Positions 24,375 to 53,889 of a DNA stretch of 64,000 bases are shown in pieces (the first letter of the stretch is position 1; every line of letters starts with the position of its first letter). The stretch is from contig JAUICZ010000001.1 of the NCBI GenBank assembly GCA_030429205.1, positions 248,001-312,000 of the forward strand, in the 5' to 3' direction. Source of the stretch: Bacteroidia bacterium. Lineage in GTDB: Bacteria; Bacteroidota; Bacteroidia; Chitinophagales; Chitinophagaceae. Under the pieces are notes generated by a model. That model did no database searches, was not told the DNA's origin, and saw only the letters and a list, made by a program, of their open reading frames with translations. The position numbers were made by a program, and so were the translations under genes.

Positions 24375-25679
24375 TTATTTTCCAGTCTTTTTCTTCTTCA
24401 TACAAGCTTCAATCTCCTCTACCGTTATTGGTATACCCTTGAACAAGTCTACATGGCCTGTTCTGGTTAACCAGATATCATTTTCTATACGGATACCCAT
24501 TTGCTCTTCTTCTATGTACAAACCTGGCTCTACTGTAAATACCATACCCGCTTTAACAGGCAAAGTACGTGTACCCAGATCGTGTACATCTATACCCATG
24601 TGGTGAGAAATACCATGATACAGGTACTTACGATAAGCAGGGTTATCAGGATCTTGATTTTTAATATCTGCTTTAGTGATCAAACCTAACTTAACACATG
24701 CTTTTTCTGTAGCAGCATTTACCTTTTTAGTATAATCTTCAACAGATATACCTGGCTTTAAAATGCTCTTAGCATAGTTGTGCAAATCTAGAACGGCATT
24801 ATATACTTCTTTCTGACGTTTGGTAAACTTACCGTTTACAGGAATGGTTCTTGTCAGGTCAGATGCATAGTTACCATACTCAGCACCAAAGTCCATAAGT
24901 ATAAGGTCGCCATCTTTACACTCTCTGTTGTTCTCTATATAGTGTAACACTCTTGCGCTATCGCCCGATGCGATGATACAATCATACGCATGTTTGGTAG
25001 CTCTGTTTCTAAGAAATTCGTGCGTGATCTCTGCTTCAATTTCATACTCCATTACACCCGGCTCTATAAAGTCCATTACCCTTCTGAAAGCTTTGTGTGT
25101 AATATCTACTGCTTTTTGAATGACCTCTACCTCGTATTTAGTTTTAATACCACGCAGCTCTTTCATGATGCGTGCCGCACGCTCATAATTATGCAATGGA
25201 TAACGCTGCATAAAGCTGTGCACAAAATCAAGATCCGTACGAAGTAAAGAAGTGCTTAACCTGTCGTTCTCGTTACTATTTAAATAAACAGTATCTGCAT
25301 TATGCATCATTACCTGTAATACCGCATCTATACTATCAGCCCATTGTACATTCTTAATACCGGATATGGCAGTAGCTTCTTCCTTACGAAGTTTATGACC
25401 TTCCCATTTTTCAAGATCTTCATTCGGGCGCAACAACACCAATACCTCTTTAGCAGATTGGTCGGGATTGTCCGGATATAGTATTACCATTGTTTGCTCT
25501 TGTACTATACCCGATAACCAAATCACATCAGAGTTGGGTTGGTATGTATACACTGCATCTCCGTTTGTGCTAAGTGTAGGGTTTGCCGGAAATATAGCCA
25601 CAGAATTAGGCTTCATTTTTTTTATAAAACGCTTACGATTTTCCTCGTGCAGTTTCGACGGTATTGGTAAATACTTCAT
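24375..25679 (-). CDS. pepP: Xaa-Pro aminopeptidase (M24B)
   Basis: 434 aa. It removes N-terminal residues that precede proline. The N-terminal half (1-180) is the aminopeptidase P regulatory domain (FPANPTLSTNGDAVYTYQPNSD). The C-terminal pita-bread domain carries the two-metal ligands in order: MDFGAEYGNYASDLTRT (two Asp), HGISHHMGIDVHD (His), VEPGLYI (Glu) and IRIENDIWL (Glu). There is no signal peptide, so it is cytoplasmic. The start ATG at 25679 is clear. It ends at a strong terminator. Confidence 0.94.
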   Translation of the reverse strand: MKYLPIPSKLHEENRKRFIKKMKPNSVAIFPANPTLSTNGDAVYTYQPNSDVIWLSGIVQEQTMVILYPDNPDQSAKEVLVLLRPNEDLEKWEGHKLRKEEATAISGIKNVQWADSIDAVLQVMMHNADTVYLNSNENDRLSTSLLRTDLDFVHSFMQRYPLHNYERAARIMKELRGIKTKYEVEVIQKAVDITHKAFRRVMDFIEPGVMEYEIEAEITHEFLRNRATKHAYDCIIASGDSARVLHYIENNRECKDGDLILMDFGAEYGNYASDLTRTIPVNGKFTKRQKEVYNAVLDLHNYAKSILKPGISVEDYTKKVNAATEKACVKLGLITKADIKNQDPDNPAYRKYLYHGISHHMGIDVHDLGTRTLPVKAGMVFTVEPGLYIEEEQMGIRIENDIWLTRTGHVDLFKGIPITVEEIEACMKKKKTGK

Positions 25680-34133: not shown

Positions 34134-37100
34134 TTAGCTACAACCTGTGGTAGTACCACAGTTAGGGCACATATAACAAGTACCATTACGTAGCGTGATG
34201 TTTCCACAGCTGCGACACACAGGAGCATCTGCACTGGTTCCCATCATCTTCTTCACATCTGTTGATTTTTGCTCTGCGCCAACAGATACCGGTTTCGGTG
34301 CAGGAGCACTGGCTTTAGGAGCAGTTGAGCTTGGTGGCGTTATCCTTACTTGTGATAACTCCTGACGCTCTTCGGCTTCATCGCCCGATGCTACTCTTGC
34401 AGGGTCTTGTACGTGTACAAGGTCTGTACGATCTAAGTATTCATACGCCAATAAGCGGAAAATAAAGTCTAGTACAGAAGTAGCCGATTTAATGTTCGGA
34501 TGCTCTACTATACCTGCCGGCTCAAAGCGAGTAAAAGTGAACTTATCTACATATTCCTCTAACGGAACACCATATTGTAAACCTACCGATACTGCTATGG
34601 CAAAGCTATTCATTAAGCTACGCATAGTAGCACCTTCTTTGGCCATATCCAGGAATATCTCACCCAGCGTACCATCGTTATATTCACCCGTACGTACGAA
34701 CATTGGCTGCCCGCCTACTTTTGCTTTAATAGTATAACCACGGCGTTTTGCAGGTAGCTGCTTGCGCTCAACTATTCGGCTCAGTTTACGTTTCAATTGA
34801 GTGTCAGGGCTGGCCTGCATACGCTTACTCATCTCTTCCAACAACTCGTCTACTGTAAGCTTACTCAAATCTATGATCTGGCTGTCTGCTTCTACTGTTA
34901 CTGCTTCTGCATCTTTAGCATCACCATCTTTTTCTTTCTTCTTCTTATCGCTCTTATTGCTTAACGGCTGGCTTAGTTTAGAACCATCACGATATAAAGC
35001 ACAAGCTTTGATACCCAACTGCCAGCTTAAGTAGTAGCAATCTTTTATCTCATCAACAGTCGCCTCATGCGGTAAGTTGATCGTTTTAGATATTGCACCA
35101 CTGATGAATGGCTGTGTTGCGCCCATCATGCGGATGTGACCGTGTGCGTGAATGTAACGCTCACCTTTTTTACCACATTTGTTTGCACAATCAAATACAG
35201 GCAAGTGCTCTTCTTTCAAGTAAGGCGCACCTTCTACCATCATAGTACCACATACATAATCGTTCGCTTCTTCTATCTGCTCGTCTGTAAAACCAAACGC
35301 TTCAAGCAGGTTAAAGTCAGGTGCAAAATATTGCTCAGGAGTAAAGCCTAAACGTTTCATACACTCTTCGCCCAAAGTATAAGCGTTGAATACGAAACCT
35401 ATTTCAAATGCACTTTCTACAGCTGCATCCAGTTTCTTCAACTCTTCAGACATCAAGCCTTTTTCGCTTAACGACTGATGGTTGATGTGTGGTGCTCCTG
35501 CAAATGTCGCATGACCTTTTGCGTAATTAACGATCGCGTCGATCTCATTCTTTTTATAACCCAAATGCTTTAATGCCTGAGGGATAGACTGGTTGATGAT
35601 CTTGAAGTAACCACCACCAGATAGTTTCTTAAACTTAACCAGTGCAAAGTCCGGCTCGATACCTGTAGTATCGCAATCCATTACCAAACCAATTGTTCCG
35701 GTAGGTGCAATAACTGTAGCCTGTGCGTTGCGGTAACCATGCTTTTCACCCATTTGTACTGCTTCATCCCATGCTTTGGTAGCAGCTTTCAATAAGTAGT
35801 CAGGGCAATACTTAGCGTTGATACCCATTGGCTTAGTTTCTAAACCTTCGTAAGCATCTGTAGCATCGTATGCTGCTGCACGGTGGTTACGCATTACGCG
35901 CATCATGTGCTCTTTATTCTCTTCGAAACGAGCAAATGCGCCAAGCGATTCTGCCATCTCTGCAGAAGTACGGTATGCAACACCATTCATGATAGCTGTG
36001 ATAGCTCCACCAATAGCACGAGCTTCTTCACTATCATAAGGGATACCACTTACCATTAGCATAGAACCAAGGTTTGCGTAACCCAAGCCAAGTGTACGAT
36101 AGTCGTAGCTTAACTGTGCCACTTCCGGAGAAGGGAACTGAGCCATCAATACAGATATCTCCAGTACCACTGTCCATAAACGAACACCATATTCAAAACC
36201 TGCTACATCAAATTCACATGTATCTTCGTTAAAGTAACGACGTAAGTTGTGCGATGCTAGGTTACAAGCTGTATTATCTAAGAACATGTATTCTGAACAT
36301 GGGTTAGACGCATTAATACGTCCACCCTCAGGACATGTATGCCACTCGTTAATTGTAGTATCATACTGTGTACCCGGATCTGCACAACGCCATGCAGAGT
36401 AAGCTATCTTCTCCCACATTTCTTTTGCAGGCATGCTCTTCATTACCTCTCCGGTGCTACGCGCTGTCATATCCCAATCTTCGTTGTTTGTTAAACGACG
36501 GAAGAACTCGTTTGGTATACGTACAGAGTTGTTTGAGTTTTGACCAGAAACAGTACGATAAGCTTCACCTTCATAGTCAGAAGCATAACCCGCAGCAATA
36601 AGTGCAGCTACTTTTTTCTCTTCTTCAACTTTCCAATCGATGAACTCTACAACCTCAGGGTGATCAAGATCAAGACACACCATTTTAGCAGCACGGCGTG
36701 TTGTACCACCACTCTTTATAGCACCTGCAGAACGGTCACCGATTTTCAAGAAACTCATTAAGCCGCTAGATGTACCACCACCACTTAATTGCTCACCTTC
36801 TGCACGGATGTTTGAGAAATTGGTACCTACACCAGAACCGTATTTAAAGATACGTGCCTCGCGTACCCATAGATCCATGATACCACCTTCATTTACCAAA
36901 TCATCATCAACACTTAGTATAAAACAAGCGTGTGGTTGCGGACGCTCATATGCATTTTTAGAACGCTCCAACTCACCTGTAACAGGGTCTATATAATAGT
37001 GCCCTTGTGGTTTACCTGTAATATCATAAGAGTTGTGTAATCCTGTATTGAACCATTGTGGCGAGTTTGGTGCACAGCTTTGGTTTAAGATGCTATATAC

Positions 37101-37469
37101 TAGCTCATCATAAAACACCTGACCATCTTGCTTGCTTGCAAAGTAGCCATATTGCTGCCCCCATGTTCTCCAGCAATCTGCAAGACGGTGTGCAACTTGT
37201 TTGATAGAGCCTTCTCTGCCAAGGCTACCATCTTCTTGCGGAACGCCTGCCTTACGGAAATACTTTTGAGCAAGTATGTCTGTAGCTATTTGTGACCAAT
37301 GTTGCGGAACTTCAACATCTGTCATTTCAAAAACCTTCTCACCATTCGGGTTACGAATTACCGACGTTCGGTAGTCATACTCGAACATATCATACGGGCT
37401 TACACCGTCCTTTGTGTAATGCCTGGAGAAACTGAGCCCCTTACCTTTTCTGGTTTTTGCTACTGCCAT
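34134..37469 (-). CDS. nrdJ: Adenosylcobalamin-dependent ribonucleoside-diphosphate reductase (class II)
   Basis: 1111 aa. It makes deoxyribonucleotides using coenzyme B12 and works with or without oxygen. Active-site pieces are seen in order: NQSCAPNSPQWFNTGL, KYGSGVGTNFSNIRAEGE, the NASNPCSEYMFLDNTACNLASHNL block with the catalytic cysteine, and VIAPTGTIGLVMDCDT. The C-terminal third carries the TSCPD domain (about 915-1020) and a Cys-rich zinc-ribbon tail (CRSCGN, CYMCPNCG, CS) that re-reduces the active site. There is no ATP cone at the N-terminus. It is monocistronic between its terminator and a 316-bp gap. Confidence 0.95.
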   Translation of the reverse strand: MAVAKTRKGKGLSFSRHYTKDGVSPYDMFEYDYRTSVIRNPNGEKVFEMTDVEVPQHWSQIATDILAQKYFRKAGVPQEDGSLGREGSIKQVAHRLADCWRTWGQQYGYFASKQDGQVFYDELVYSILNQSCAPNSPQWFNTGLHNSYDITGKPQGHYYIDPVTGELERSKNAYERPQPHACFILSVDDDLVNEGGIMDLWVREARIFKYGSGVGTNFSNIRAEGEQLSGGGTSSGLMSFLKIGDRSAGAIKSGGTTRRAAKMVCLDLDHPEVVEFIDWKVEEEKKVAALIAAGYASDYEGEAYRTVSGQNSNNSVRIPNEFFRRLTNNEDWDMTARSTGEVMKSMPAKEMWEKIAYSAWRCADPGTQYDTTINEWHTCPEGGRINASNPCSEYMFLDNTACNLASHNLRRYFNEDTCEFDVAGFEYGVRLWTVVLEISVLMAQFPSPEVAQLSYDYRTLGLGYANLGSMLMVSGIPYDSEEARAIGGAITAIMNGVAYRTSAEMAESLGAFARFEENKEHMMRVMRNHRAAAYDATDAYEGLETKPMGINAKYCPDYLLKAATKAWDEAVQMGEKHGYRNAQATVIAPTGTIGLVMDCDTTGIEPDFALVKFKKLSGGGYFKIINQSIPQALKHLGYKKNEIDAIVNYAKGHATFAGAPHINHQSLSEKGLMSEELKKLDAAVESAFEIGFVFNAYTLGEECMKRLGFTPEQYFAPDFNLLEAFGFTDEQIEEANDYVCGTMMVEGAPYLKEEHLPVFDCANKCGKKGERYIHAHGHIRMMGATQPFISGAISKTINLPHEATVDEIKDCYYLSWQLGIKACALYRDGSKLSQPLSNKSDKKKKEKDGDAKDAEAVTVEADSQIIDLSKLTVDELLEEMSKRMQASPDTQLKRKLSRIVERKQLPAKRRGYTIKAKVGGQPMFVRTGEYNDGTLGEIFLDMAKEGATMRSLMNSFAIAVSVGLQYGVPLEEYVDKFTFTRFEPAGIVEHPNIKSATSVLDFIFRLLAYEYLDRTDLVHVQDPARVASGDEAEERQELSQVRITPPSSTAPKASAPAPKPVSVGAEQKSTDVKKMMGTSADAPVCRSCGNITLRNGTCYMCPNCGTTTGCS

Positions 37470-37785: not shown

Positions 37786-40158
37786 TTATTGTATTACTAG
37801 CTTACGGATAAGCTTGTTACCATCTGCATATAACTCTACAAAGTATACACCAGCCGGTTGAGAAGACAAGTTGATCGACTCGTTAAACTCACCTGTCTGC
37901 ACTTTGTATGCTTCCTCAAATACTGTTTGACCTGTAATATTCGTGATCACTAAATTCACATCATCAATTATTGATGAGCTGTTGAACTGAACATTGAATA
38001 TTCCTTGCGTTGGGTTAGGATATAAACCGAAACCAGACAACCCTTGTATTTGACCTACAGACTCTGGTATTTTATTACGGAAGATCACCATAAAGTCTTC
38101 TGTCTCACCTGAAGTGTAACCACCACAAGCCTCATCAGAAGGAACGTTAGGACCCACATCGTTATTTAATATTACTCTTAACCCTGTTGGCACATCCGTT
38201 ATAACGGTTTTCGGTATTTGAACATTATCAATTAAAGTGTAATTACCGATTGAAGAGAAGCCTGTGTATACACGCTCGTTAGGGATATCATACTCATGGT
38301 CATTATCAAAGTCCATGAATATCGTGATCTTCGCATCACCATGTTCTACTGATTTCATAGTATGGTATACATAGAAAGAATACAAACTATCAATAAACAT
38401 CTCTGCAGGTTTATCGTCAGTATGATCTGTACGAGGAAGAACAGCATTAGGATTAAGCACGTGCGGGCCACCATTGTTCGTATTAATAGTAGCGATCGTA
38501 ACACCACCGATATCACTAGTATCAGCAGAAACGCCACCTAATGCTTTACTATAGCAGTAACATTTATAACCAGGCTTACTATTCACCAGAGTTGGCGAAG
38601 AATATGATGTATCTGTAGTAGCCGGACAAATAGTTCTTAATCTATAATATAGCGGTTGACCAGTAAATATTCGTTGTAATGTATCCTTGCCTGTACTATT
38701 CGGCACGTTAAACCAGCTTACATTGTCTCCAGACACTTCCCAAGCTATATTATATGCAGAACGATCTTTCTGATAAGTCGTATCTGTCAAAGTATACTCG
38801 TAGTCTTTACACATTGATGTATCTGTAGAAGACACAATACCTGCAGCAACCGGGCCGTCACAAGGACGGTGACAGATTTCTACTATATAATCTTCAATCT
38901 CTCCCTGTCCGTCTAGCGTATCACAAGGAGCAAGCTTGATTGTGTCTTCGCTTACTACAATACGCATACCTGTATAACCTATAGCTGCACTAGTAGGTAT
39001 TTTATAATCTATTTGTGCTACTTCTGGTGGGTTACCTGTACCGTTTATCGCCTTGATAGCTACACGCTCTGTATTAGGATTGTATGCACCATCTCTGTTT
39101 AAATCGATGTATACATGCGCTACGGTTGATGTTAAGCTTGATGTAGTATGCGCTTGAGTGATGATAAACCTATACGTTGTATCTCTGTACAAACAAGGCC
39201 ATGCAACACTATCCTGATAGGTTGAGTATACTTTATTTGCCTCGCTATTATTGTATAGCGGAGTTGTGATACCCGTTGTAAGAGGAGCTGTTGTAATAAC
39301 AGTATCTCCCGATGTCATATTAATCACTTTCAGGTTACCAACATCTGCACCTGCATCGCTTCTCACTTGAGTTTCACAATAGCAATAATAGAATGGAGCA
39401 ATGCTTACTTTATGTACAGGAGTAGTCCATGAATAACTATTATTTCTACATTTAACAGTTAGTCTGTAATACTTAGCTGCGGTAATAGAATCTGTGATAC
39501 CACCTGTAGTAGTATCTACAACACCAGGATAGTTAGACCATGTTGTTCCATTAAATGAAAACTCATACTTATAATCAGCATCAGCGTAGAAACTATCCGG
39601 TTTGATCGTGAACTTTCTCTTTGGACATACTTGAGTAGGACCATTTAGAGATGTTTTAGGTGTATCTGTACATGGATAACCAGCTTCAAATATGATTGTC
39701 ATCACCTGAGTAGGTGCACCACATGTTGCAGTATTAACACCACCCCAGTTAAGGTTAGTGATACACGGCCTTAAAATATAACCGGGGTTAGGACAGTTTG
39801 AACCACTACACATTGATGGCGGATCTACCCATGTTTCACCGTTGTATCTGTTACAAACAGACCATACGTGGCCATTTGCTGTCGGCGAAATGTATGCTGA
39901 CGCATTTTTAATGGCCAATGCCATATTATTCACAATAGTTCTGTCGGTACAAACCAACCCTGTCTGGTCGAAAGTACCTTTAATAATCATCCTCAGATAT
40001 ACTCCGGGGTTCAGTTGGTTTCGGAATGCATTCCAGTTGTTACACTGTGTTGTTGCGGTTTGCCCATTTGTATGGGTTTCCGAATACATTACCGTTTGCG
40101 CATTAGATATACCTGCCTGCGACAACAATAAAATGGCGATGAATACAATTTTTTTCAT
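37786..40158 (-). CDS. T9SS surface protein with two GEVED domains (paralogue 1)
   Basis: 790 aa. Signal peptide 1-20. An N-terminal module unique to this copy (21-160; Cys-rich, NNWNAFRNQLNPGVYLRMII) is followed by a shared region from CTDTPKTS onwards: an Ig-like part, GEVED domain 1 (VYIDLNRDGAYNPNTERV ... GEIEDYIVEI), a second Ig-like part, GEVED domain 2 (IFMDFDNDHEYDIPNERVY ... GETEDFMVIF), and a type A T9SS sorting domain (GFGLYPNPTQGIFNVQF ... KLVIQ). It should be secreted through the outer membrane and attached to the surface. The Asp/Asn-rich DxNxDG loops may bind calcium. Role: probably adhesion. Confidence 0.88.
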   Translation of the reverse strand: MKKIVFIAILLLSQAGISNAQTVMYSETHTNGQTATTQCNNWNAFRNQLNPGVYLRMIIKGTFDQTGLVCTDRTIVNNMALAIKNASAYISPTANGHVWSVCNRYNGETWVDPPSMCSGSNCPNPGYILRPCITNLNWGGVNTATCGAPTQVMTIIFEAGYPCTDTPKTSLNGPTQVCPKRKFTIKPDSFYADADYKYEFSFNGTTWSNYPGVVDTTTGGITDSITAAKYYRLTVKCRNNSYSWTTPVHKVSIAPFYYCYCETQVRSDAGADVGNLKVINMTSGDTVITTAPLTTGITTPLYNNSEANKVYSTYQDSVAWPCLYRDTTYRFIITQAHTTSSLTSTVAHVYIDLNRDGAYNPNTERVAIKAINGTGNPPEVAQIDYKIPTSAAIGYTGMRIVVSEDTIKLAPCDTLDGQGEIEDYIVEICHRPCDGPVAAGIVSSTDTSMCKDYEYTLTDTTYQKDRSAYNIAWEVSGDNVSWFNVPNSTGKDTLQRIFTGQPLYYRLRTICPATTDTSYSSPTLVNSKPGYKCYCYSKALGGVSADTSDIGGVTIATINTNNGGPHVLNPNAVLPRTDHTDDKPAEMFIDSLYSFYVYHTMKSVEHGDAKITIFMDFDNDHEYDIPNERVYTGFSSIGNYTLIDNVQIPKTVITDVPTGLRVILNNDVGPNVPSDEACGGYTSGETEDFMVIFRNKIPESVGQIQGLSGFGLYPNPTQGIFNVQFNSSSIIDDVNLVITNITGQTVFEEAYKVQTGEFNESINLSSQPAGVYFVELYADGNKLIRKLVIQ

Positions 40159-40258
40159 AAATATCGTGTTAAACTAACCCATGTTAATCTCCAATTAATT
40201 GAAATTTAACTATGCTAATATAGTGAAAATGTGCTGTTTCAATGTATAGACATAAAAA

Positions 40259-40284
40259 ATACCCGCGACGTTGGTCGCGGGTAT
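40259..40284 (-). terminator. Terminator of GEVED paralogue 2
   Basis: ATACCCGCGAC, loop GTTG, GTCGCGGGTAT, then a T-run on the minus strand. Confidence 0.9.
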
Positions 40285-40311
40285 TGCTTTTAATTAAAAT
40301 CTCTAAAAATA

Positions 40312-42774
40312 TTATTTGATCACCAGCCTCCTGATCAGCTTCTGACCATCTGCTTGAATTTCAACTATATAAACGCCTGTAGGCTTGCCTGTTAAGTCTA
40401 TTTCTTTACTAAATACGCCACTTTGAGGTTTATAGCTGTCCTGATAAATTAATTGTCCCGTAACATTGGTGATCCTTAGTTGAAGATCGTCTATAGCAGC
40501 ATCTGTATTAAACTGTATGCTAAACTGACCATTATTAGGGTTAGGGTAAATACCAAAACCGGTTAGCTTGGCAATATTATTAATGTCGTCAGGCACTTTA
40601 TTACGGAAAATCACCATAAAGTCTTCTGTTTCTCCTGAAACGTAACCACCACAAGCTTCATCAGATGGTATATTAGGCCCCACATCATTATTAAGTATAA
40701 CCCTTAAACCTGTTGGGACATCTGTTATGGCCGTTTTCGGTATTTGAATGTTGTCTATTAATGTATAATTACCAATTGAAGTAAAACCGGTATATATTCT
40801 TTCTGCAGGCACATCATATTCATGATCGTTATCGAAGTCCATGAAAATTGTCACTTTCGAATCGCCATGTTCTTTAACATTCATAGTATGATAAACATAA
40901 AAACTATACAAGCTATCTACATATATATTGGTAGGGTTATCATCTGTATGGTCTGTACGTGGTCTTACTGCCTGTGCATTTAGCAAGTGCGGACCGCCAT
41001 TATATGTTGATATTCCGGCAATTGTAATTCCACCGATATCACTTGTATCAGAAGCCCCTCCGATTGCCTTACTGTAGCAATAACATTTATAACCGGGTTT
41101 TACATTGATTTTAGTAGACGACGTATATGTCGTGTCTTGAGTTCCCGGACAAACCATTCTTACCCGATAATATAAAGGCTGCCCCGTAAACACCCTTTGT
41201 AGCGTATCCTTTTTTGTACTATTAGCAATATTGAACCAAGAAATATCATCACCTGAAATTTGCCAATCCCATGTAAACTGAGATCTGTTCTTCTGATATG
41301 TTGTATCTGTAAGTGTGTACTCATAACTATTACACATCGATGTATCTGTAGAAACTACAACACCGGCATTCAACGGCCCATCACATGGCCTGTGACATAT
41401 CTCGACAATATAGTCTTCAACCTCTCCCTCACCAGTAAGCGTATCACAAGGTGCTACTTTGATCGTATCTTCGCTGACTATTACACGCATACCGGTATAA
41501 CCAATTGAAGCGGAACCAGGTATTTTGTAATCAATCTCTGCAACCTCTGGCGGATTACCGGTACCATCTATAGCCTTAATAGCAACTCGTTCTGAATTAG
41601 GGTTGTATACACCATCTCTGTTTAGATCTATATACACATGCGCTACTGTTGAAGTTAAGCTGGAAGAGGTATGAGCCTGTGTTATGATAAACTTATACGT
41701 AGTATCTCTGTATAAGCATGGCCATGCCAGACTATCATGGTAAGATGAATAAACCTTGTTTGCATCTTTGTTATTGTATAATGGGCTTACTATGCCTGTT
41801 GAGAGCGGAACTGTAGAGACTACAGTATCGCCGGATGTCATATTAATCACCTTCAGGTTACCAATATCTGCCCCTCCATCATTAGTTACTTTATTATCGC
41901 AATAGCAGTAATAAAATGGCGCTATTGCTACTTTATGGGCTGATGTTGTGTACGTTTTATTATCGCCATTACAAGTAATAATACATCTGTACCATTTATC
42001 AACTGTGATAGAATCAAATATCTGGCCTCCGTTTGAAGTATCAGGGCTACCTGTAAAATTCGACCAGCTGGCGCCATTATTATAAGAATATTGCCATTTA
42101 TAAGATAAACCTGTAAGCACAGGATCAAGCCTTAGATAAAACCTCTTATTCGGACATACATAGTTTGGCGCAAGCACTTTTGAAATACTAAGAGGGGTAT
42201 CAACACAAGGTATTCCGGACGAGTAGCCTATCCATCCATTAAACCTTCTGATATGAAAAGTCGGAGACGGAGCTCCTCCTCCATATCCTACATTAGAGCC
42301 TGTATTTATATGCAGTGTCCCATCTGTGTAAACATCTGCCTGAGCTCCGGATCCTGTAGTATAGTGCACCCCACCAGATGTAGGTTCTATGTAAAAGCCA
42401 TATGCCTTACCTGCCGGTATAGTAACATTAAACGCTGTTGGTATTAATTGTACGTTACCCGCTGCACCTCCTCCTGGTACAGAAACACCTGTAGCTATCT
42501 GCGTCCAGCCATTAGCAGTATTAATGGTAGGGCTACCGTTAATAGAATCAGTATTCATCCAAACATTCACTGTTGTGTTTGCATATGTTGAAACGTGTAT
42601 CTCTTCTACAGTAACCCTCTTGTTCGCTCCAACATTAAAAGAAATACCTGCACTACCATTACCACCATTTAATGGCGGCACTGTTTTTACATATTTAATA
42701 TTTTGAGCCTGCGTTAACGTACTTAGTAGTAACATCACTACCAGCAAACCCACACTATATACGCTCTTTTTCAT
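40312..42774 (-). CDS. T9SS surface protein with two GEVED domains (paralogue 2)
   Basis: 820 aa. Signal peptide 1-23. The unique N-terminal module (24-188) starts KYVKTVPPLNGGNGS and is Gly/Thr-rich with a beta-sandwich pattern (FNVTIPAGKAYGFYIEPTSG), unlike the first and third copies. From CVDTP the shared region follows: Ig-like, GEVED 1 (YIDLNRDGVYNPNSERV ... GEVEDYIVEI), Ig-like, GEVED 2 (FMDFDNDHEYDVPAERIY ... GETEDFMVIF) and the type A T9SS domain (GFGIYPNPNNGQFSIQF ... RRLVIK). The surface location is well supported; ligand unknown. Confidence 0.88.
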   Translation of the reverse strand: MKKSVYSVGLLVVMLLLSTLTQAQNIKYVKTVPPLNGGNGSAGISFNVGANKRVTVEEIHVSTYANTTVNVWMNTDSINGSPTINTANGWTQIATGVSVPGGGAAGNVQLIPTAFNVTIPAGKAYGFYIEPTSGGVHYTTGSGAQADVYTDGTLHINTGSNVGYGGGAPSPTFHIRRFNGWIGYSSGIPCVDTPLSISKVLAPNYVCPNKRFYLRLDPVLTGLSYKWQYSYNNGASWSNFTGSPDTSNGGQIFDSITVDKWYRCIITCNGDNKTYTTSAHKVAIAPFYYCYCDNKVTNDGGADIGNLKVINMTSGDTVVSTVPLSTGIVSPLYNNKDANKVYSSYHDSLAWPCLYRDTTYKFIITQAHTSSSLTSTVAHVYIDLNRDGVYNPNSERVAIKAIDGTGNPPEVAEIDYKIPGSASIGYTGMRVIVSEDTIKVAPCDTLTGEGEVEDYIVEICHRPCDGPLNAGVVVSTDTSMCNSYEYTLTDTTYQKNRSQFTWDWQISGDDISWFNIANSTKKDTLQRVFTGQPLYYRVRMVCPGTQDTTYTSSTKINVKPGYKCYCYSKAIGGASDTSDIGGITIAGISTYNGGPHLLNAQAVRPRTDHTDDNPTNIYVDSLYSFYVYHTMNVKEHGDSKVTIFMDFDNDHEYDVPAERIYTGFTSIGNYTLIDNIQIPKTAITDVPTGLRVILNNDVGPNIPSDEACGGYVSGETEDFMVIFRNKVPDDINNIAKLTGFGIYPNPNNGQFSIQFNTDAAIDDLQLRITNVTGQLIYQDSYKPQSGVFSKEIDLTGKPTGVYIVEIQADGQKLIRRLVIK

Positions 42775-42930
42775 AAGTTAAAACAATAAAATTTGAACAA
42801 ATAGTAACCATATGCAATATCAGAAATTGCTCACTATATATTGACCCTAAGTCCATTATAATAGCATTAAAGAGGCAGCTTCTAATTAATAGCACCTTAA
42901 ATAGGCATGTTTTTTTAACCCACAGACAAT

Positions 42931-42970
42931 AAAAAAATCAGGGGCAATTCATATTGCCCCTGATTTTTTT
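42931..42970. terminator. Terminator of GEVED paralogue 3
   Basis: AAAAAATCAGGGGCAAT, loop TCAT, ATTGCCCCTGATTTTTT with A/T tails on both strands. Confidence 0.92.
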
Positions 42971-42992
42971 ATGTTTAGTACTTAAACTTACC

Positions 42993-45347
42993 TTATTGTA
43001 TTACAAGTTTGCGTATCAACCTTTCCCCATCAAAATTCAACTCTACAAAGTACACACCTGCGGGCTGATCGCCAAGATCAATCTCCTTAGTAAACTCTGT
43101 ACCACCAACGCTATATTGTTGTGTATATACTACCTGACCGGTAACGCTGGAAACTCTTGTTTCAACATTATCAACAACATCAACAGCGTTAAACGATAAT
43201 GTAAATGTTCCGGACGTAGGGTTAGGATATATTCCAAATCCTCCCAACTTGCTGGTAAACTCACTCACACCTGCCGGAACTTTCTTACGGAAGATCACCA
43301 TAAAGTCTTCAGTTTCTCCGGACTGGTAAGCGCCACAAGCTTCATCAGAAGGTGTATTCGGGCCTACATCATTATTCAATATCACCCTCATACCTGTTGG
43401 CACGTCTGTTATCGCGGTCTTGGGTATTTGAATATTATCTATCAGGGTGTAATTACCGATAGAAGTAAATCCGGTATATACACGCTCACTAGGAATATCG
43501 TACTCATGATCGTTATCAAAGTCCATAAAGATGGTCACTTTCGAATCTCCATGTTCCTTCACATTCATAGTATGATAAACATAGAAACCATACATGCTAT
43601 CTATGTAGATATCAGTTGGTGTATCGTCTGTATGATCTGTACGCGGTCTTACAGCTTGTGCATTCAATAGGTGCGGACCGCCATTGTATGTAGAAAGCGT
43701 ACCCATAGTGATGCCACCTATATCACTACTATCGTCAGCTTTACCACCTACGGCTTTACTGTAGCAATAACATTTGTATCCTGGTTTAACATTAATCTTC
43801 GTTGAAGGCGAGAAGGTTGTGTCTCTGGTACCCGGACAAACCATTCTTACACGGTAGTAAAGTGGCTGACCAGTAAACACTCTCTGTAATGTATCTTTTT
43901 TGGCACTATTCCCGACATTGAACCAAGATATGTCATCGCCTGACACTTGCCAGTCCCATGTAAACTGAGAACGATCTTTCTGATATGTAGTATCAGTAAG
44001 TGTATACTCGTAGCTGCTACACATAGATGTATCTGTCGAAAGTACGATACCTGCAGTCATTGGGCCGTCGCACGGACGATGACAGATCTCTACAATATAA
44101 TCCTCTACTTCACCGCCACCAGATAAGGTATCACATACTTTTGTTTTGATAGTGTCCTCACTAATAACAACACGCATACCGGTATATCCTATAGCCGCAG
44201 TTGTTGGTATTTTATATTCTTTATTTACTTCATGAGCAGGATTACCTGTACCATCAAAATTATTAATGAGAATACGTTCAGTATTCGGGTTATACTCTCC
44301 ATCTCTGTTCAGGTCAACAAAAATTTGCAACACACCTTTTACCAGCGATGAGCTTGTTTGCTCCTGAGATACTATGAATTTATATGTAGTATCTCTGTAC
44401 AAGCAAGGCCATGCAACACTATCATGGTATGAAGTATATTTTTTGTTTGCTTCTGCATCATTATATATCGGAGCCAAAACACCGTTATCTAAAACAGTGT
44501 CACCAGATGTCATGTTAATCAGCTTAATATTACCAATGTCAGCACCTGCATCAGAAACTACCTGATTATCGCAATAACAATAGTAGAATGGCGCAATGCT
44601 AACTTTGTGCGGTGCTGTAACATACGTGATGTTACTATTAGTACATGTAACAGTACATCTGTACCATTTTGCTGCTGTAATACTATCAGTGATCTTACCA
44701 CCTAATGTCGTGGGCGTTCCTATAAAGTTGGACCAGATGACACCATTGTTTGAAACTTCCCACTTAAAAGTAAGATCAGAAGTGATCTGCAAACCTTCCA
44801 AACCTAAAGTGAACACTTTATTCGGACATACCTGCCATGGTCCTTCAACTTTTGTTTTAGGAGTATCAGTACACGGGATAATACCTGCATATACTTCAAT
44901 CTCTCTGTGGTTTTGGTTGTAGCTACCTACTATGTTGGTAAAACGAATTCTCGTAGTGGTAACTGTAGTGAAAGAAACTGAATCGTCACAGGCTGTACCA
45001 CTATATGATGCTATCTGTGTCCATCCGGATCCATTCCAATACTCTATATCACAAGATGTCATTGGACGATCTCCTTTCTTAAAGATTACTTTACCCACTA
45101 ACTGCGGCGTAGACCATGTGTAATCAATTGTACCACCTGACGAGACCCATCCCCAAGGTGTATTCGGGCAGTTGGATATGACCTGATCGTTGTAGTTCGT
45201 CGGACCATAAATTGTAACACCACCACCAGAGTGATTAGGCGTACCAATTAATGCAATATTCTGTGCCTGAGCACTATTTGACAGTGAAAACACCACCAAA
45301 AAAAAGCTTAAAAGTCGTAAGCATTTCCGAGTAAAAACTTTATCCAT
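42993..45347 (-). CDS. T9SS surface protein with two GEVED domains and galactose-binding-like module (paralogue 3)
   Basis: 784 aa. Signal peptide 1-28 (ends SAQA). The unique N-terminal module (29-157) looks like an F5/8-type-C, galactose-binding-like domain (DYTWSTPQLVGKVIFKKG, then SCDIEYWNGSGWTQIASYSG and TRIRFTNIVGSYNQNHREIEV). The shared part follows from CTDTP: Ig-like, GEVED 1 (FVDLNRDGEYNPNTERI ... GEVEDYIVEI), Ig-like, GEVED 2 and the type A T9SS domain (GFGIYPNPTSGTFTLSF ... RKLVIQ). Carbohydrate binding at the surface is the likely function, shared or varied among the three copies. Confidence 0.88.
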   Translation of the reverse strand: MDKVFTRKCLRLLSFFLVVFSLSNSAQAQNIALIGTPNHSGGGVTIYGPTNYNDQVISNCPNTPWGWVSSGGTIDYTWSTPQLVGKVIFKKGDRPMTSCDIEYWNGSGWTQIASYSGTACDDSVSFTTVTTTRIRFTNIVGSYNQNHREIEVYAGIIPCTDTPKTKVEGPWQVCPNKVFTLGLEGLQITSDLTFKWEVSNNGVIWSNFIGTPTTLGGKITDSITAAKWYRCTVTCTNSNITYVTAPHKVSIAPFYYCYCDNQVVSDAGADIGNIKLINMTSGDTVLDNGVLAPIYNDAEANKKYTSYHDSVAWPCLYRDTTYKFIVSQEQTSSSLVKGVLQIFVDLNRDGEYNPNTERILINNFDGTGNPAHEVNKEYKIPTTAAIGYTGMRVVISEDTIKTKVCDTLSGGGEVEDYIVEICHRPCDGPMTAGIVLSTDTSMCSSYEYTLTDTTYQKDRSQFTWDWQVSGDDISWFNVGNSAKKDTLQRVFTGQPLYYRVRMVCPGTRDTTFSPSTKINVKPGYKCYCYSKAVGGKADDSSDIGGITMGTLSTYNGGPHLLNAQAVRPRTDHTDDTPTDIYIDSMYGFYVYHTMNVKEHGDSKVTIFMDFDNDHEYDIPSERVYTGFTSIGNYTLIDNIQIPKTAITDVPTGMRVILNNDVGPNTPSDEACGAYQSGETEDFMVIFRKKVPAGVSEFTSKLGGFGIYPNPTSGTFTLSFNAVDVVDNVETRVSSVTGQVVYTQQYSVGGTEFTKEIDLGDQPAGVYFVELNFDGERLIRKLVIQ

Positions 45348-45569: not shown

Positions 45570-45950
45570 ATGAATTTTCCTGATAATCTGAAATACACAA
45601 AAGACCACGAATGGTTGTTAGTAGAAGGTGATATAGCAACAGTAGGTATTACCGATTTCGCACAGCGTGAGCTAGGTGATATTGTATTTGTTGATATTGA
45701 CTCTGACGGTAAGTCGTTGGAAGCCAATGATATATTTGGTACTGTAGAAGCAGTAAAAACAGTTTCTGACTTGTTCTTACCTATTGCAGGTACTGTTACA
45801 GAAGTTAACGCTGAGCTAGAAGGCGCTCCTGAAAATGTAAACTCTGACCCGTATGGCGGCGGTTGGATGATTAAAATGAAGATGAATAACCCTGCAGATG
45901 CAGACGCATTGATGGATGCCGCAGCTTATCAGGAACTTGTAGGAGAATAA
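45570..45950 (+). CDS. gcvH: Glycine cleavage system H protein
   Basis: 126 aa, normal length. It carries the aminomethyl group from glycine on a lipoyl arm between the P and T proteins of the glycine cleavage system. The lipoyl lysine is K63 in [13 protein letters not shown], with the flanking [16 protein letters not shown] and VTEVNAEL. It stands alone, without gcvP or gcvT in the window, and is followed 13 bp later by a VanZ-like gene. Its intact lipoylation site contrasts with the degenerate paralogue at 18380. The ATG at 45570 is clear. Confidence 0.97.
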
Positions 45951-50327: not shown

Positions 50328-51071
50328 CTATAACATCGACCACCAAATAGCCTTCTGTTTATAGTCGCCCCAACGGTCGAGGCTGGTGCTGAGCTTATCG
50401 TACATTTCTTTCTGGGTTACCTCTTTACCTTTTTTAGGCGGCACCATTTCTTTCTGGTCAGCATTACCATAATCTACCTTAGTTGCGATCCATGTTGTAT
50501 GCAAACGAGGTATGGCAACTTCCAGCACCATTCCCGGCAAACCGCTAAACATTTCAGGGCCACCACTTGCAGGTATATCATCCGTATAAAATGCTACAAC
50601 ATAAACAGAATCGTACATCTTTGCCAGAGCCTTACGGCATTTATAATTGGCTATAGTACGTACCTCGTCCATTATCTTCCATTCTATTTTGCGCATACTA
50701 TCCTTCACCAAAAACTTCTCTTCGTACACCTGTTTCTGAGCAACGACCTGCTTTGTATTAAAGTCTGTATAAACTACATTTTCAGCTGCTGGAGTACGGG
50801 AGAACCACATATTAAATTGTTGCTCCGCTTCCCTGCCGGGTTGATATACACTTTTGTCGGTATCAAAAATCAGATCAAAATACTCAACCTTGTGCTTAGG
50901 TATTTTTGCGCGAAATTTTTCTATCCACTCTTTTCTTTCCTTATCCATCTGGTCAATAGTGCGGTGTAAATTCGTCTTACGCTCAAACTCTATTTTACCT
51001 TGCATAGTATGCTGTGCAAAAGATCCCAGCGTTATCAACATCAAGAATTGTATGAATAATATTTTCTTCAT
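50328..51071 (-). CDS. GLPGLI family secreted protein
   Basis: 247 aa. Signal peptide 1-19 (SFAQ). It belongs to the GLPGLI family of Bacteroidetes exported proteins, with the defining motif GLPGMVLEV in the second half (MFSGLPGMVLEV) after KYDTDDIP-like FYTDDIPASGGPEM. Function is unknown; members often sit next to large outer-membrane receptors, as here: the gene follows the 936-aa receptor by 7 bp on the same strand. The two are probably co-transcribed and act together at the outer membrane. Confidence 0.9.
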   Translation of the reverse strand: MKKILFIQFLMLITLGSFAQHTMQGKIEFERKTNLHRTIDQMDKERKEWIEKFRAKIPKHKVEYFDLIFDTDKSVYQPGREAEQQFNMWFSRTPAAENVVYTDFNTKQVVAQKQVYEEKFLVKDSMRKIEWKIMDEVRTIANYKCRKALAKMYDSVYVVAFYTDDIPASGGPEMFSGLPGMVLEVAIPRLHTTWIATKVDYGNADQKEMVPPKKGKEVTQKEMYDKLSTSLDRWGDYKQKAIWWSML

Positions 51072-51078
51072 TTCAGGT

Positions 51079-53889
51079 CTATTTATTCAGGATAAAATCA
51101 GCTGCGCTGTTTTCAGGTTTAGCGCCTGCCATTTTTGTAAAATTCCATATCAGGCTGATCATACCATATCTACGTATAGTATTGTAATTACTTTCTGTAA
51201 TACTATTGCCATATGCATACCTGTTAAAGCCGAGGTTTTGGTTAAGGATATCATATACAGATGCTCTTAGCTCTAGCTGATCATTTTCCAGGAACGATTT
51301 AGACAAGTATGCATTCCAACGGAAAACATTATTATTCCTGTCAAATACAGCTGTTTTTTCTCTTATGTACCAATTGAAATCTGTACCTATTTCCATCTTC
51401 CACGGCAGCTCATAGCGGGCATCAAAACCATAGTTTGTAGACCAATAGCTTGTGGTTTGCGTATTGATATCCGACTTATTATCGTTGTATGTAAAACTAA
51501 CATCGATACCTACCTCAAACTTCTCATTTTTTGTTTCGTAATCAGCATCCACACCTACAGTGTAACTATTGTTGTTTGTTACATTCTTCACATTGTTTAC
51601 GAAGTTGTTATTTCTGCTAATATTGGTATTAAAATTAGCCCCAACACTAGCATTGTATTTAGTTATTCTTTTACCAATACCACCACCGGCATAACCATTG
51701 TAGTTACCGTCAATATTCACATATTGAGATCTACGGTTACCAACCGTATCCACAGTCTGTGCCCTTGTAATAGCATTATCTGTGATAGTGAATCCACTAT
51801 AAATGTATATCCATCTGCCCGATAGCACCTTGTAATCGTTGAAGTTCAGGTTGAAACTATTTCTAAACTCCTGGGTAAGATTGGCATTACCAACGGTAAT
51901 ATTCTGTGGGTTGGTATTATCCTGTATTGGCTGTATTTGTTGTATTGTAGGTTGGCGCGTCTGTCCGTTATATCTAAACCTGATACTGGTTTGTTTACCT
52001 ATCTTGTAACGCAGACTAGCTTTTGGAAAAAGGTTAAACACACTATATTTAAAAGAGGTGTCTTGTATAAGGTCTTCCTGATTAAATGCCGTATTTGCAA
52101 CATTCATACCGGCAGAGAAGTCTAGCTTTTTATAATCCCAACTGAAGTTGGTACCAGCTCTATGCGTAATGATATTATATGCGTAGTGGTTGCTAAAGTT
52201 AGGATCTATCGCATCATATACATCGGCATTAACAGCGCTTTTATTAAAAGTATTCCTTTCAGAGTTAGTATTATTGATACTTAATTTATACTCCAGCGAT
52301 ACTGCCATAGCCTTTGTTATCGGCTCTGTATATGTAGCAGCCCCGTCTACATTCAATGCAGTTGATACATTTTCTTTGCGTTGGTCTGTAATACTATCCT
52401 TTCCGCTTATCTTATTTCTTACTATAGTATTTAATCGCCCCGAACTATTAGACTCTTCGTAGTGCTCACCCATAGAAAGCACCAATGTCCTTCTGTCTTT
52501 ATTAAACTTCTTTCTCCACGTCAAGTTGCTGATGATTCTTTTTGTTGTGGCTTCATTATTTACATCCCTGTCACTTGTACTTAAAGTATCTCCACTCGTG
52601 CTCAAAACATTCTGATTGAACTTTGTTTTGTTTAGAGAGTTCATATGATGCCCTGAGGCTGTAAGCCTTAATGTAGACAAGCTATCTGTTTTCCACTCAT
52701 ACAATCCATCAACTTTATGCCTTTGTCCTGTTTTAAATTTATCTTCTGACTGCTGAGTAAACTGCACCTGGTCGTCCGGTAGTATTACTTGGGATATAGT
52801 ATTGTCAATAGACTCGATATTCTGCTTTGCATAACGATAGTTAGTGGCAATACGGTGTTTATCTTCATTCCATTTATCAGAGAAGTGCACACCACCTGTC
52901 CATGCTTTGGGGAAACCCTGACCATTATACTGTCCATTCCAACTGTCAAACTCGTCGCTGGTGTAATATGTAGTTACGGAACCATCATCACCCATTGACG
53001 TATTATTTCCACCGCCAAACTTGTCACGATCTTCCCATCCCAAACCGATCTTACCGGTATTGGCCATAATACCAAAAGCGGATATTTTCTTTTTACCCTT
53101 GAAGTAGTTAAACATGGCCTGATTCTCAAAATAATCCTGATCTACACCGGTACCTCCAGAACCAACGACTTTACCAAAGTACCCCTTCTTCATATCTTCC
53201 TTCAATTGAAGGTTTACAGTTCGCGTCACCTCCCCATCGTCAATTCCGGTAAACTCTGCCTGCTCACTCTTTTTATCAAATACCTGTACTTTATCTACTG
53301 CTTTAGCCTGCAAGCTTTTAGACACTACAGCCGGATCGTCTGTAAAGAACTCCTCACCATCTACAAGTAATTTCTCTACCTTCTGTCCATGAGCCTGTAT
53401 ATTACCATCTTTATCTACTTGTAAGCCCGGCAGTTTTTTCAGCAACTCTTCAACTGTGGCATTATCTTTTACGCTAAAGCTATCTGCCAGATACTCAACA
53501 GTATCTCCTTTAACCCTAATTGCAGAGTAACGTTCTGTAAACACAAACTCCTCCATAAGGTGTGTGCGCGATGTCATTGGCACTTCCCCCAAATCTGTCA
53601 CAGGGTTTTGAATGTTTATTTTATCTACAAAGTCTGCAAAGCCGGGAAATACGGTAAGCATGATATACTTACCTTGCTTGGATACCGTCAACGAGAAACT
53701 ACCATCTTCTTTTGTTCTGGTAAAATTTTCCATTACAGAATCTGCCGCTCTTAACAAGGTAACACTGGCATTTGGCAATGGATTATAGTTTACTGTATCG
53801 GATAACTTTCCCTTGATAGTATAGGGCTGTGCAAGTACCTGTGTAGACAACAGAATACACAAGATGAATAGAGGCAGGCGCTGAAGCAT
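51079..53889 (-). CDS. Large outer-membrane receptor with carboxypeptidase-like regulatory domain
   Basis: 936 aa. Signal peptide 1-20, carboxypeptidase-like regulatory domain (about 23-100: TIKGKLSDTVNYNPLPNASVTLL), a plug-like region (VEELLKKLPGLQVDKDGNIQAHGQKVEKLLVDGEEFF), then a beta-barrel of the OMP_b-brl_3 type, rich in Asn and Thr. There is no obvious TonB box, but the layout matches TonB-dependent-like receptors. Substrate unknown. It precedes the GLPGLI gene by 7 bp. The start ATG at 53889 gives a good signal sequence. Confidence 0.88.
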   Translation of the reverse strand: MLQRLPLFILCILLSTQVLAQPYTIKGKLSDTVNYNPLPNASVTLLRAADSVMENFTRTKEDGSFSLTVSKQGKYIMLTVFPGFADFVDKINIQNPVTDLGEVPMTSRTHLMEEFVFTERYSAIRVKGDTVEYLADSFSVKDNATVEELLKKLPGLQVDKDGNIQAHGQKVEKLLVDGEEFFTDDPAVVSKSLQAKAVDKVQVFDKKSEQAEFTGIDDGEVTRTVNLQLKEDMKKGYFGKVVGSGGTGVDQDYFENQAMFNYFKGKKKISAFGIMANTGKIGLGWEDRDKFGGGNNTSMGDDGSVTTYYTSDEFDSWNGQYNGQGFPKAWTGGVHFSDKWNEDKHRIATNYRYAKQNIESIDNTISQVILPDDQVQFTQQSEDKFKTGQRHKVDGLYEWKTDSLSTLRLTASGHHMNSLNKTKFNQNVLSTSGDTLSTSDRDVNNEATTKRIISNLTWRKKFNKDRRTLVLSMGEHYEESNSSGRLNTIVRNKISGKDSITDQRKENVSTALNVDGAATYTEPITKAMAVSLEYKLSINNTNSERNTFNKSAVNADVYDAIDPNFSNHYAYNIITHRAGTNFSWDYKKLDFSAGMNVANTAFNQEDLIQDTSFKYSVFNLFPKASLRYKIGKQTSIRFRYNGQTRQPTIQQIQPIQDNTNPQNITVGNANLTQEFRNSFNLNFNDYKVLSGRWIYIYSGFTITDNAITRAQTVDTVGNRRSQYVNIDGNYNGYAGGGIGKRITKYNASVGANFNTNISRNNNFVNNVKNVTNNNSYTVGVDADYETKNEKFEVGIDVSFTYNDNKSDINTQTTSYWSTNYGFDARYELPWKMEIGTDFNWYIREKTAVFDRNNNVFRWNAYLSKSFLENDQLELRASVYDILNQNLGFNRYAYGNSITESNYNTIRRYGMISLIWNFTKMAGAKPENSAADFILNK

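Follow-up and report, generated by a model that had tools for sequence, protein, structure and literature searches.

Organization of the probable adhesin locus

The window, a stretch of 64,000 nt from a Chitinophagaceae genome (contig JAUICZ010000001.1, positions 248,001 to 312,000), contained three neighbouring genes on the same strand (37786-45347) that encode the proteins P0001, P0002, and P0003 (Table 1). As the preliminary description had stated, the three proteins share their C-terminal part (about 620 residues by our count, about 600 in that description) and begin with different heads; the heads were unrelated. The genes were separated by gaps of 153 and 218 bp. Because a hairpin followed each of them, the three are probably separate transcription units; a T run was present only after genes 3 and 2. 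No match to a Bacteroidetes-type promoter pattern was found within 250 nt upstream of any of the genes.

Table 1. Positions of the probable adhesin genes, their modules, and the neighbouring features in the window
Feature	Position	Strand	Remark
nrdJ (class II ribonucleotide reductase)	34134..37469	-	other flank of conserved insertion site
Gene 1 (P0001, 790 aa)	37786..40158	-	ORF
P0001 T9SS type A sorting tail	37792..38025	-	
P0001 shared stalk	38065..39675	-	two GEVED domains, putative Ig-like regions
P0001 signal peptide and head	39676..40158	-	residues 1-161, Cys-rich, head group A
Hairpin and T run between genes 2 and 1	40259..40284	-	GC-rich, terminator-like, counted from sequence
Gene 2 (P0002, 820 aa)	40312..42774	-	ORF
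P0002 T9SS type A sorting tail	40318..40551	-	
P0002 shared stalk	40591..42210	-	
P0002 signal peptide and head	42211..42774	-	residues 1-188, singleton head B2
Hairpin and T run between genes 3 and 2	42929..42972		perfect 20-nt hairpin, terminator-like
Gene 3 (P0003, 784 aa)	42993..45347	-	ORF
P0003 T9SS type A sorting tail	42999..43232	-	
P0003 shared stalk	43275..44876	-	
P0003 signal peptide and head	44877..45347	-	residues 1-157, head B3, galactose-binding-like via relatives
gcvH	45570..45950	+	one flank of conserved insertion site

Shared stalk and sorting tail

According to Pfam, each protein contained two GEVED stretches and one Por_Secre_tail, and the C-terminal Por_Secre_tail/TIGR04183 match was above both cut-offs in all three. 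The two GEVED domains and the T9SS domain described earlier were thereby confirmed, whereas the two Ig-like domains described with them are plausible, no Ig family having been reported by Pfam in the three proteins. In a structure model of P0003 (mean pLDDT 71), the stalk was nearly all beta, and the full model gave only low-scoring matches, to generic multi-domain beta proteins (TM-scores of 0.09-0.16, normalized to query length, among the 50 listed). On this model, stalk regions with no named family may plausibly be called Ig-like.

The genome encodes the T9SS component SprA (2632.6 bits). An N-terminal head followed by a rod of Ig-like and GEVED domains and a sorting tail would be the build of an adhesin, and the three genes probably encode T9SS-exported, surface-attached fibrillar-type adhesins, their display on the surface being predicted. 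Across the 3.6 Mb of the genome, all 150 scored candidates (187 first-look candidates) matched the sorting tail, 149 of them over the Pfam cut-off, which is a large T9SS cargo set for a genome of 3.6 Mb.

A search of the same genome with P0002 did not find a fourth full stalk. Three of the 26 matches were the genes of the window, 22 were to the tail region (the longest to residues 637-818, 27% identity), and one was to residues 35-267 (31%). The P0003 stalk as query yielded one additional match (28% over 367 residues), and six more GEVED matches were present elsewhere in the genome.

Boundary between head and stalk

The alignment of P0002 with the other two copies began only at residue 182/184 and ran to the C-terminus, with 69% and 71% identity. 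In 25-column windows, identity among the three proteins was mostly below 35% before PCxDTP (19 of 24 values), 26-72% over the first 100 columns or so past it, 48-96% from there as far as column 750, and 28-83% across the sorting tail. The DNA profile showed the same step. The boundary had been placed near a CxDTP motif in all three genes, and the raw identity step indeed sits at PCxDTP; uniform divergence along the genes was ruled out by this step. The switch from resemblance to the same head elsewhere to resemblance to the own genome lay roughly 40-100 residues past PCxDTP, in Ig1.

Synonymous divergence along the stalk was at least 1.25 or not computable for every block and pair of the three genes, and the longest DNA run identical between the copies was 26 nt. 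Since synonymous sites are near saturation, the copies of the window must have parted or last recombined long ago, and the view of them as recent duplicates with swapped heads is not upheld.

Heads and their relatives on other proteins

The three heads did not detect one another by BLAST at an E-value of 1e-4, and Pfam reported for them neither a family above its cut-off nor a CshA-type head. Toxin families were absent among the Pfam matches of the heads in a general Pfam search. The P0001 head contained seven Cys residues ahead of the motif's own Cys, in agreement with its description as Cys-rich. The P0002 head had weak links through its relatives (n = 14), one to DUF4082 and one to Lectin_like. 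The P0003 head, described as galactose-binding-like, matched no Pfam family itself; the assignment comes through its relatives, since of seven B3-type heads four matched PF24135 and three PF22633, which are galactose-binding families, below the cut-offs wherever cut-offs were given.

Against the sequences of solved structures, P0002 matched by its tail only, the profiles of heads A and B2 gave nothing below an E-value of 0.05, and the single sequence of head B3 gave nothing. The B3 profile gave one match below 0.001, to a stretch of a beta-galactosidase entry (E-value of 5.5e-4). A structure model of head A, built with five sequences, was poor (pLDDT 51.6).

A search for further heads elsewhere in the genome had been suggested, and relatives of all three were found on other proteins. 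Two proteins with T9SS tails, one with FN3 and one with PKD (both over the cut-off), had a B3-type head in front, and a third such head was carried by a T9SS-tail protein with a sub-threshold Ig match. An A-type head was found inside a T9SS-tail protein with Big_2 and PKD-like matches, and a B2-type head on a protein with the sorting tail as its only Pfam match. A 2328-residue frame of G212 also contained repeated B2-type modules, with a period of about 700 nt. Among 294 family genomes, including that of the window, a head match at an E-value of 0.001 was present in 32 for B2, 10 for A, and 10 for B3. As a side observation, the window's own genome (G000:C4:2143531-2153220; L023, L111) contains a 3437-residue frame in which a module resembling P0002 (31%) is combined with a T9SS tail.

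Stalk genes and head groups in related genomes

A stalk match at an E-value of 0.001 was obtained in 144 of the 294 family genomes, many of the matches being partial only, and in all 15 genomes of a related genus (in G297 by the tail only, among the matches listed). Relatives with the stalk were recorded under the names Flavipsychrobacter, Taibaiella, Chitinophagaceae, and Bacteroidetes, and included IBVUCB1 (G264) and LGM1 (G169, a complete genome), neither of which is titled as a MAG. One record (L133), titled Azovibrio restrictus, carries a Chitinophagaceae-type adhesin locus; A. restrictus is a proteobacterium, and the title looks wrong.

The comparison set, taken from the nearest genomes, comprised 43 stalk genes of 17 genomes (37 of the 43 complete). 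For its assembly, 48 ORFs were kept, two without the stalk start having been dropped, and the duplicate fragment G094_L125_5141 was dropped thereafter; four G026 genes served as the outgroup. The head analysis was confined to this set; some 30 further stalk proteins, more distant and for the most part longer, lay outside it. The overall domain order was identical across the 43 genes. Single-linkage BLAST clustering of their heads gave groups of 16, 14, 8, 2, 1, 1, and 1, and we divided the cluster of 16 manually into groups C (12) and D (4). The P0001 head fell into group A (eight genes), the P0003 head formed a weak pair with G303, and the P0002 head had no partner on this stalk among the 43 genes.

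Conserved chromosomal sites

In 15 genomes including that of the window, one to six stalk genes with a total of six head types lay beside gcvH and/or nrdJ. The heads at this site were B3, B2, and A in the window; E, E, E, C, E, and A in G094; E, C, and C in G221 and G304; D in G264, G169, and G298; E in G295, G296, G299, and G301; and C in G294 and G300. Only the gcvH side was represented in G303 (B3) and only the nrdJ side in G302 (E). In three other genomes of the window's genus (L206-L209), gcvH was found with neither nrdJ nor a stalk gene adjoining it within the stretches compared, so the site appears to have been rearranged there.

A second site adjoins an M24 aminopeptidase gene and held stalk genes in eight related genomes, with the heads C and A; A and A; C; A in three genomes; a singleton and C; and E. 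The aminopeptidase P (M24) gene of the window (24375-25679) has no stalk gene beside it.

Discordant histories of heads and stalks

In the stalk tree (47 rows), genes grouped mostly by genome or close lineage, and the three stalks of the window grouped together (support 99/96). Head types recurred across genera on these stalks, and the tree implied 18 changes of head type (8 states) and 22 of genome (17 states). The AU test rejected a stalk clade of all A heads (eight genes, p-AU 3.8e-6), of the A subset from G000, G169, and G094 (p-AU 1.5e-71), and of all C heads (12 genes, p-AU 5.2e-38). Two further clades, picked after the tree had been seen, gave a p-AU of 0.028 (D genes of G264, G169, and G298) and 0.0019 (C genes of G264 and G298); the latter two genes occupy the same site and have heads that are 83% identical, and their stalks did not group. 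Plain orthology was also visible in the tree, for the A and E genes of G295, G296, and G299 and for the C and E genes of G294 and G300.

Identity in 40-residue windows between genes of the same genome with different heads was 41-56% where the windows started before stalk residue 80 and 62-84% where they started at 80-520. Between genes of different lineages with the same head, it was 45-58% in windows starting at 0-80, which exceeds the value for different heads by 3-11 points; past residue 80 the excess was no more than 4 points. In a permutation test (37 complete genes, head labels shuffled within lineages, 2000 permutations), the head signal was 0.082 in Ig1 1-45 (0/2000), 0.059 in Ig1 46-95 (0.010 expected, 0/2000), and 0.031 in the sorting tail (0.004 expected, 0/2000). 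It was nominal and tiny in effect in GEVED1 (0.017 versus 0.012, 47/2000) and GEVED2 (0.000 versus -0.004, 37/2000), and amounted to 0.005 versus 0.003 in Ig2 (605/2000). Ig1 and the sorting tail thus carry a head signal, and the centre of the stalk carries almost none. Such a pattern, in which both ends stay distinct and the middle is shared, would be expected from gene conversion among the copies resident in a genome.

P0001 and its counterpart in G169 were 61.0% identical in the head and 49.8% in the stalk centre, whereas P0001 and its two neighbours in the window were 25-34% identical in the head and 72-79% in the centre. In four of five cross-genus pairs of the same head type, the heads (48-71%) were more alike than the centres (33-50%): these were the pair just given, a second A pair (53.2% and 48.0%), a C pair (71.0% and 33.3%, the centre being partial), and a D pair (47.7% and 41.5%, the centre again partial). 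The B3 pair of the window and G303 was reversed (head 28.5%, centre 47.5%) and counts against an exchange model.

Identical stalk tracts within genomes

Long identical tracts between paralogs were found in three genomes. In G264, 1615 nt were identical between neighbours with A and C heads (heads 28% identical), and the tracts between two C-head paralogs extended over 1628 nt in G221 and 1389 nt in G304 (C heads of these pairs 53-55% alike). All three tracts began 246-486 nt inside the stalk, at neither the head junction nor an upstream position, and extended to the end of the stop codon, give or take one base, beyond which similarity dropped; heads and flanks differed around them. In G301, 233 nt were identical between stalk genes at two different sites. 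The contigs of G050, G136, G294, and G303 end within the stalk, which would fit repeats formed by identical stalks but is only suggestive. In the genome of the window, no long tract was identical between paralogs (maximum 26 nt), so that for recombination there the argument draws on the tree and the relatives.

These tracts bear on the possibility that stalk genes were duplicated in tandem independently in each lineage, each copy capturing a head, with no gene conversion. Lineage clades of stalks, the frequent tandem arrangement of the genes, and window copies free of conversion tracts would all agree with such a course. We nevertheless regard it as unlikely, because a head-type signal kept in Ig1 and the tail and nearly lost from the centre suggests older genes, each specific to its head, whose middle was overwritten, because the three longest tracts start well inside the stalk, and because the C genes of G264 and G298 share a site and similar heads on stalks that do not group (by a test chosen post hoc). 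Gene conversion between resident copies agrees better with these features.

Probable head replacement in place between sister genomes

Seven orthologous pairs were compared at the gcvH-nrdJ site: two showed replacement of the head only, three none, one a longer tract, and one was too diverged. In the third gene of G221 and G304, the signal peptides were identical, the heads about 68-69% identical (dN 0.24, dS 5.8, saturated), the first 35 residues of Ig1 71% identical, and the rest of the stalk 98.7% identical (dN 0.009, dS 0.19). The flanking genes had a dS of 0.01-0.33, and the two neighbouring stalk genes were unaffected. As the two heads are still mutually nearest, old alleles rather than head types would have been exchanged. 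In G294 and G300, identity was 85% in the signal peptide, 43% in the head (dS 2.25), 97% in the first 35 residues of Ig1, and 95% in the rest of the stalk (dS 0.60), and the flanking genes had a dS of 0.24-0.67, except for values of 1.34 and 1.71 (a 99-codon alignment) and overlapping frames. The head of G300 was nearest to those of G301, G304, and G221 (65-66%) and that of G294 to G303 (41%).

Most of the gene differed between G295 and G299 (dS 1.38 versus 0.05-0.44 in the flanks), which suggests that larger allelic replacements, reaching beyond the head, occur too. No replacement was seen between G295 and G296 or in two genes of G221 and G304, and the G264/G169 pair was too diverged to tell. 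Both head-only cases come from genomes that are MAGs by their titles (G221, G304, G294, and G300), in which strain mixing can make chimeras; G221 and G304 are also the source of two of the long identical tracts.

If instead the genes were one ancient family whose heads evolved fast under diversifying selection on a constrained stalk, with no exchange, the common domain order and the reversed B3 pair would fit. This account has, in our judgement, a very small chance of being correct: same-type heads are more alike than centres in four of five cross-genus pairs (two with partial centres), the heads of the window do not detect one another, and in the two sister pairs the synonymous divergence of the head far exceeds that of the stalk. 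For these two pairs, fast evolution of heads with no exchange is refuted unless the assemblies are chimeric.

Interpretation and relation to known systems

Given the module boundary, the recurrence of heads, their histories discordant with those of the stalks, the identical tracts, the in-place differences in heads, and the fixed site, as read from the sequences, we consider it likely that these genes, at fixed sites, encode modular adhesins whose stalks have undergone gene conversion and whose heads have been replaced in place. Gene conversion would be the molecular route. Conversion between resident copies would overwrite the centre of the stalk, at times as far as the stop codon, so that stalks come to resemble those of their own genome. 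Between a kept signal peptide and a kept stalk, the head would be replaced, alone or together with the beginning of Ig1. Both processes would rely on homologous recombination, with either a paralog or incoming DNA as the partner. These two kinds of recombination would leave heads diverse and moving between genes, sites, and species, and stalks alike within a cell. The heads would bind glycans or other surfaces and be selected for variety.

The preliminary description had proposed a system that works by duplication and head swapping. Head exchange on a shared stalk is supported, with heads recurring across genera, relatives of all three heads on other proteins, and two orthologous genes of sister genomes differing almost only in the head; a dedicated system is not supported. 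Within-cell shuffling or phase variation by invertible cassettes, silent heads, or a retroelement would have a similar outcome, namely many heads on one stalk, and is hardly probable at all: the locus holds a single long-range inverted pair of 19 nt at 84% identity, Pfam names no recombinase or reverse transcriptase among the 20 neighbouring genes (three of them with no match of any kind), and the genome has no fourth full stalk. The inverted repeats, recombinase, and silent copies of invertible-cassette phase variation were thus not encountered in the locus, the 20 neighbours, or the stalk copies of the genome. Polymorphic toxins come with an immunity gene. Their constant part with an exchangeable end module is comparable to the arrangement described here, but they exchange a C-terminal toxin, whereas the exchanged end in the adhesins is N-terminal (PMC3482391).

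Replacement of heads on converted stalks has a close parallel in the bab/hom adhesin genes of Helicobacter pylori, paralogs at a few conserved loci between which gene conversion occurs; their 5' part is alike between strains and their 3' part within a strain, which is read as concerted evolution (PMC3960876). Here too, one part of the gene tracks orthology and another the genome, and long identical paralog tracts are present in G264, G221, and G304, with a shorter one in G301 and none in the genome of the window. The bab/hom paralogs, however, encode outer membrane proteins that are related to one another and belong to a host-bound pathogen, as against unrelated head groups on T9SS cargo, and in contrast to bab/hom, gene conversion is deduced here solely from sequence (PMC3960876). 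Long-lasting concerted evolution in prokaryotes has been called rare (PMC6053082).

The Porphyromonas gingivalis gingipains RgpA/Kgp and HagA are T9SS cargo with shared modules and variants that do not track strain phylogeny, for which domain rearrangement, allelic exchange, and gene conversion were invoked (PMC5266723). There, adhesin modules and catalytic variants differ, whereas in the present genes the stalk is fixed and the N-terminal head is what is exchanged. GEVED was defined in fibrillar adhesins, for which domain shuffling was proposed as a source of new adhesins (PMC10952558). In the CshA type, GEVED lies downstream of the NR2-like binding domain, as in the order of head and GEVED here, but the C-terminal anchor of the present proteins is a T9SS sorting tail and Pfam reported no CshA-type head; that work, as far as its relevant passages go, compares architectures rather than recombination at one locus. 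Among the open-access papers listed in literature searches, none dealt with this gene family or with head exchange at gcvH-nrdJ.

More tentatively, the gcvH-nrdJ site may long have served this Chitinophagaceae branch as a locus of head exchange, a possibility to which we give somewhat less than even weight. It would act as a fixed dock at which species trade unrelated tips through homologous flanks, one formed by the upstream DNA and signal peptide and the other by Ig1 and the stalk, so that lineages would differ in their sets of recognition tips on a uniform rod. If so, the trade could proceed under frequency-dependent pressure, for example from phages, predators, or kin recognition.

Segmental concerted evolution is known from host-bound pathogens, and replacement of heads combined with conversion of stalks would extend it to T9SS adhesins whose heads are unrelated. 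In apparently free-living bacteria, the parts of one gene would have different histories, with stalks alike inside each genome and tips traded at a fixed site. Trees or names based on the full length of such proteins would then mislead. Several head groups on one stalk also constitute a natural set in which to ask what the tips bind and what drives their turnover.

Elsewhere in the window (50331-53889), matches to PNGase F-II N-terminal and Porph_ging were found in one protein, which adjoins an outer membrane beta-barrel protein.
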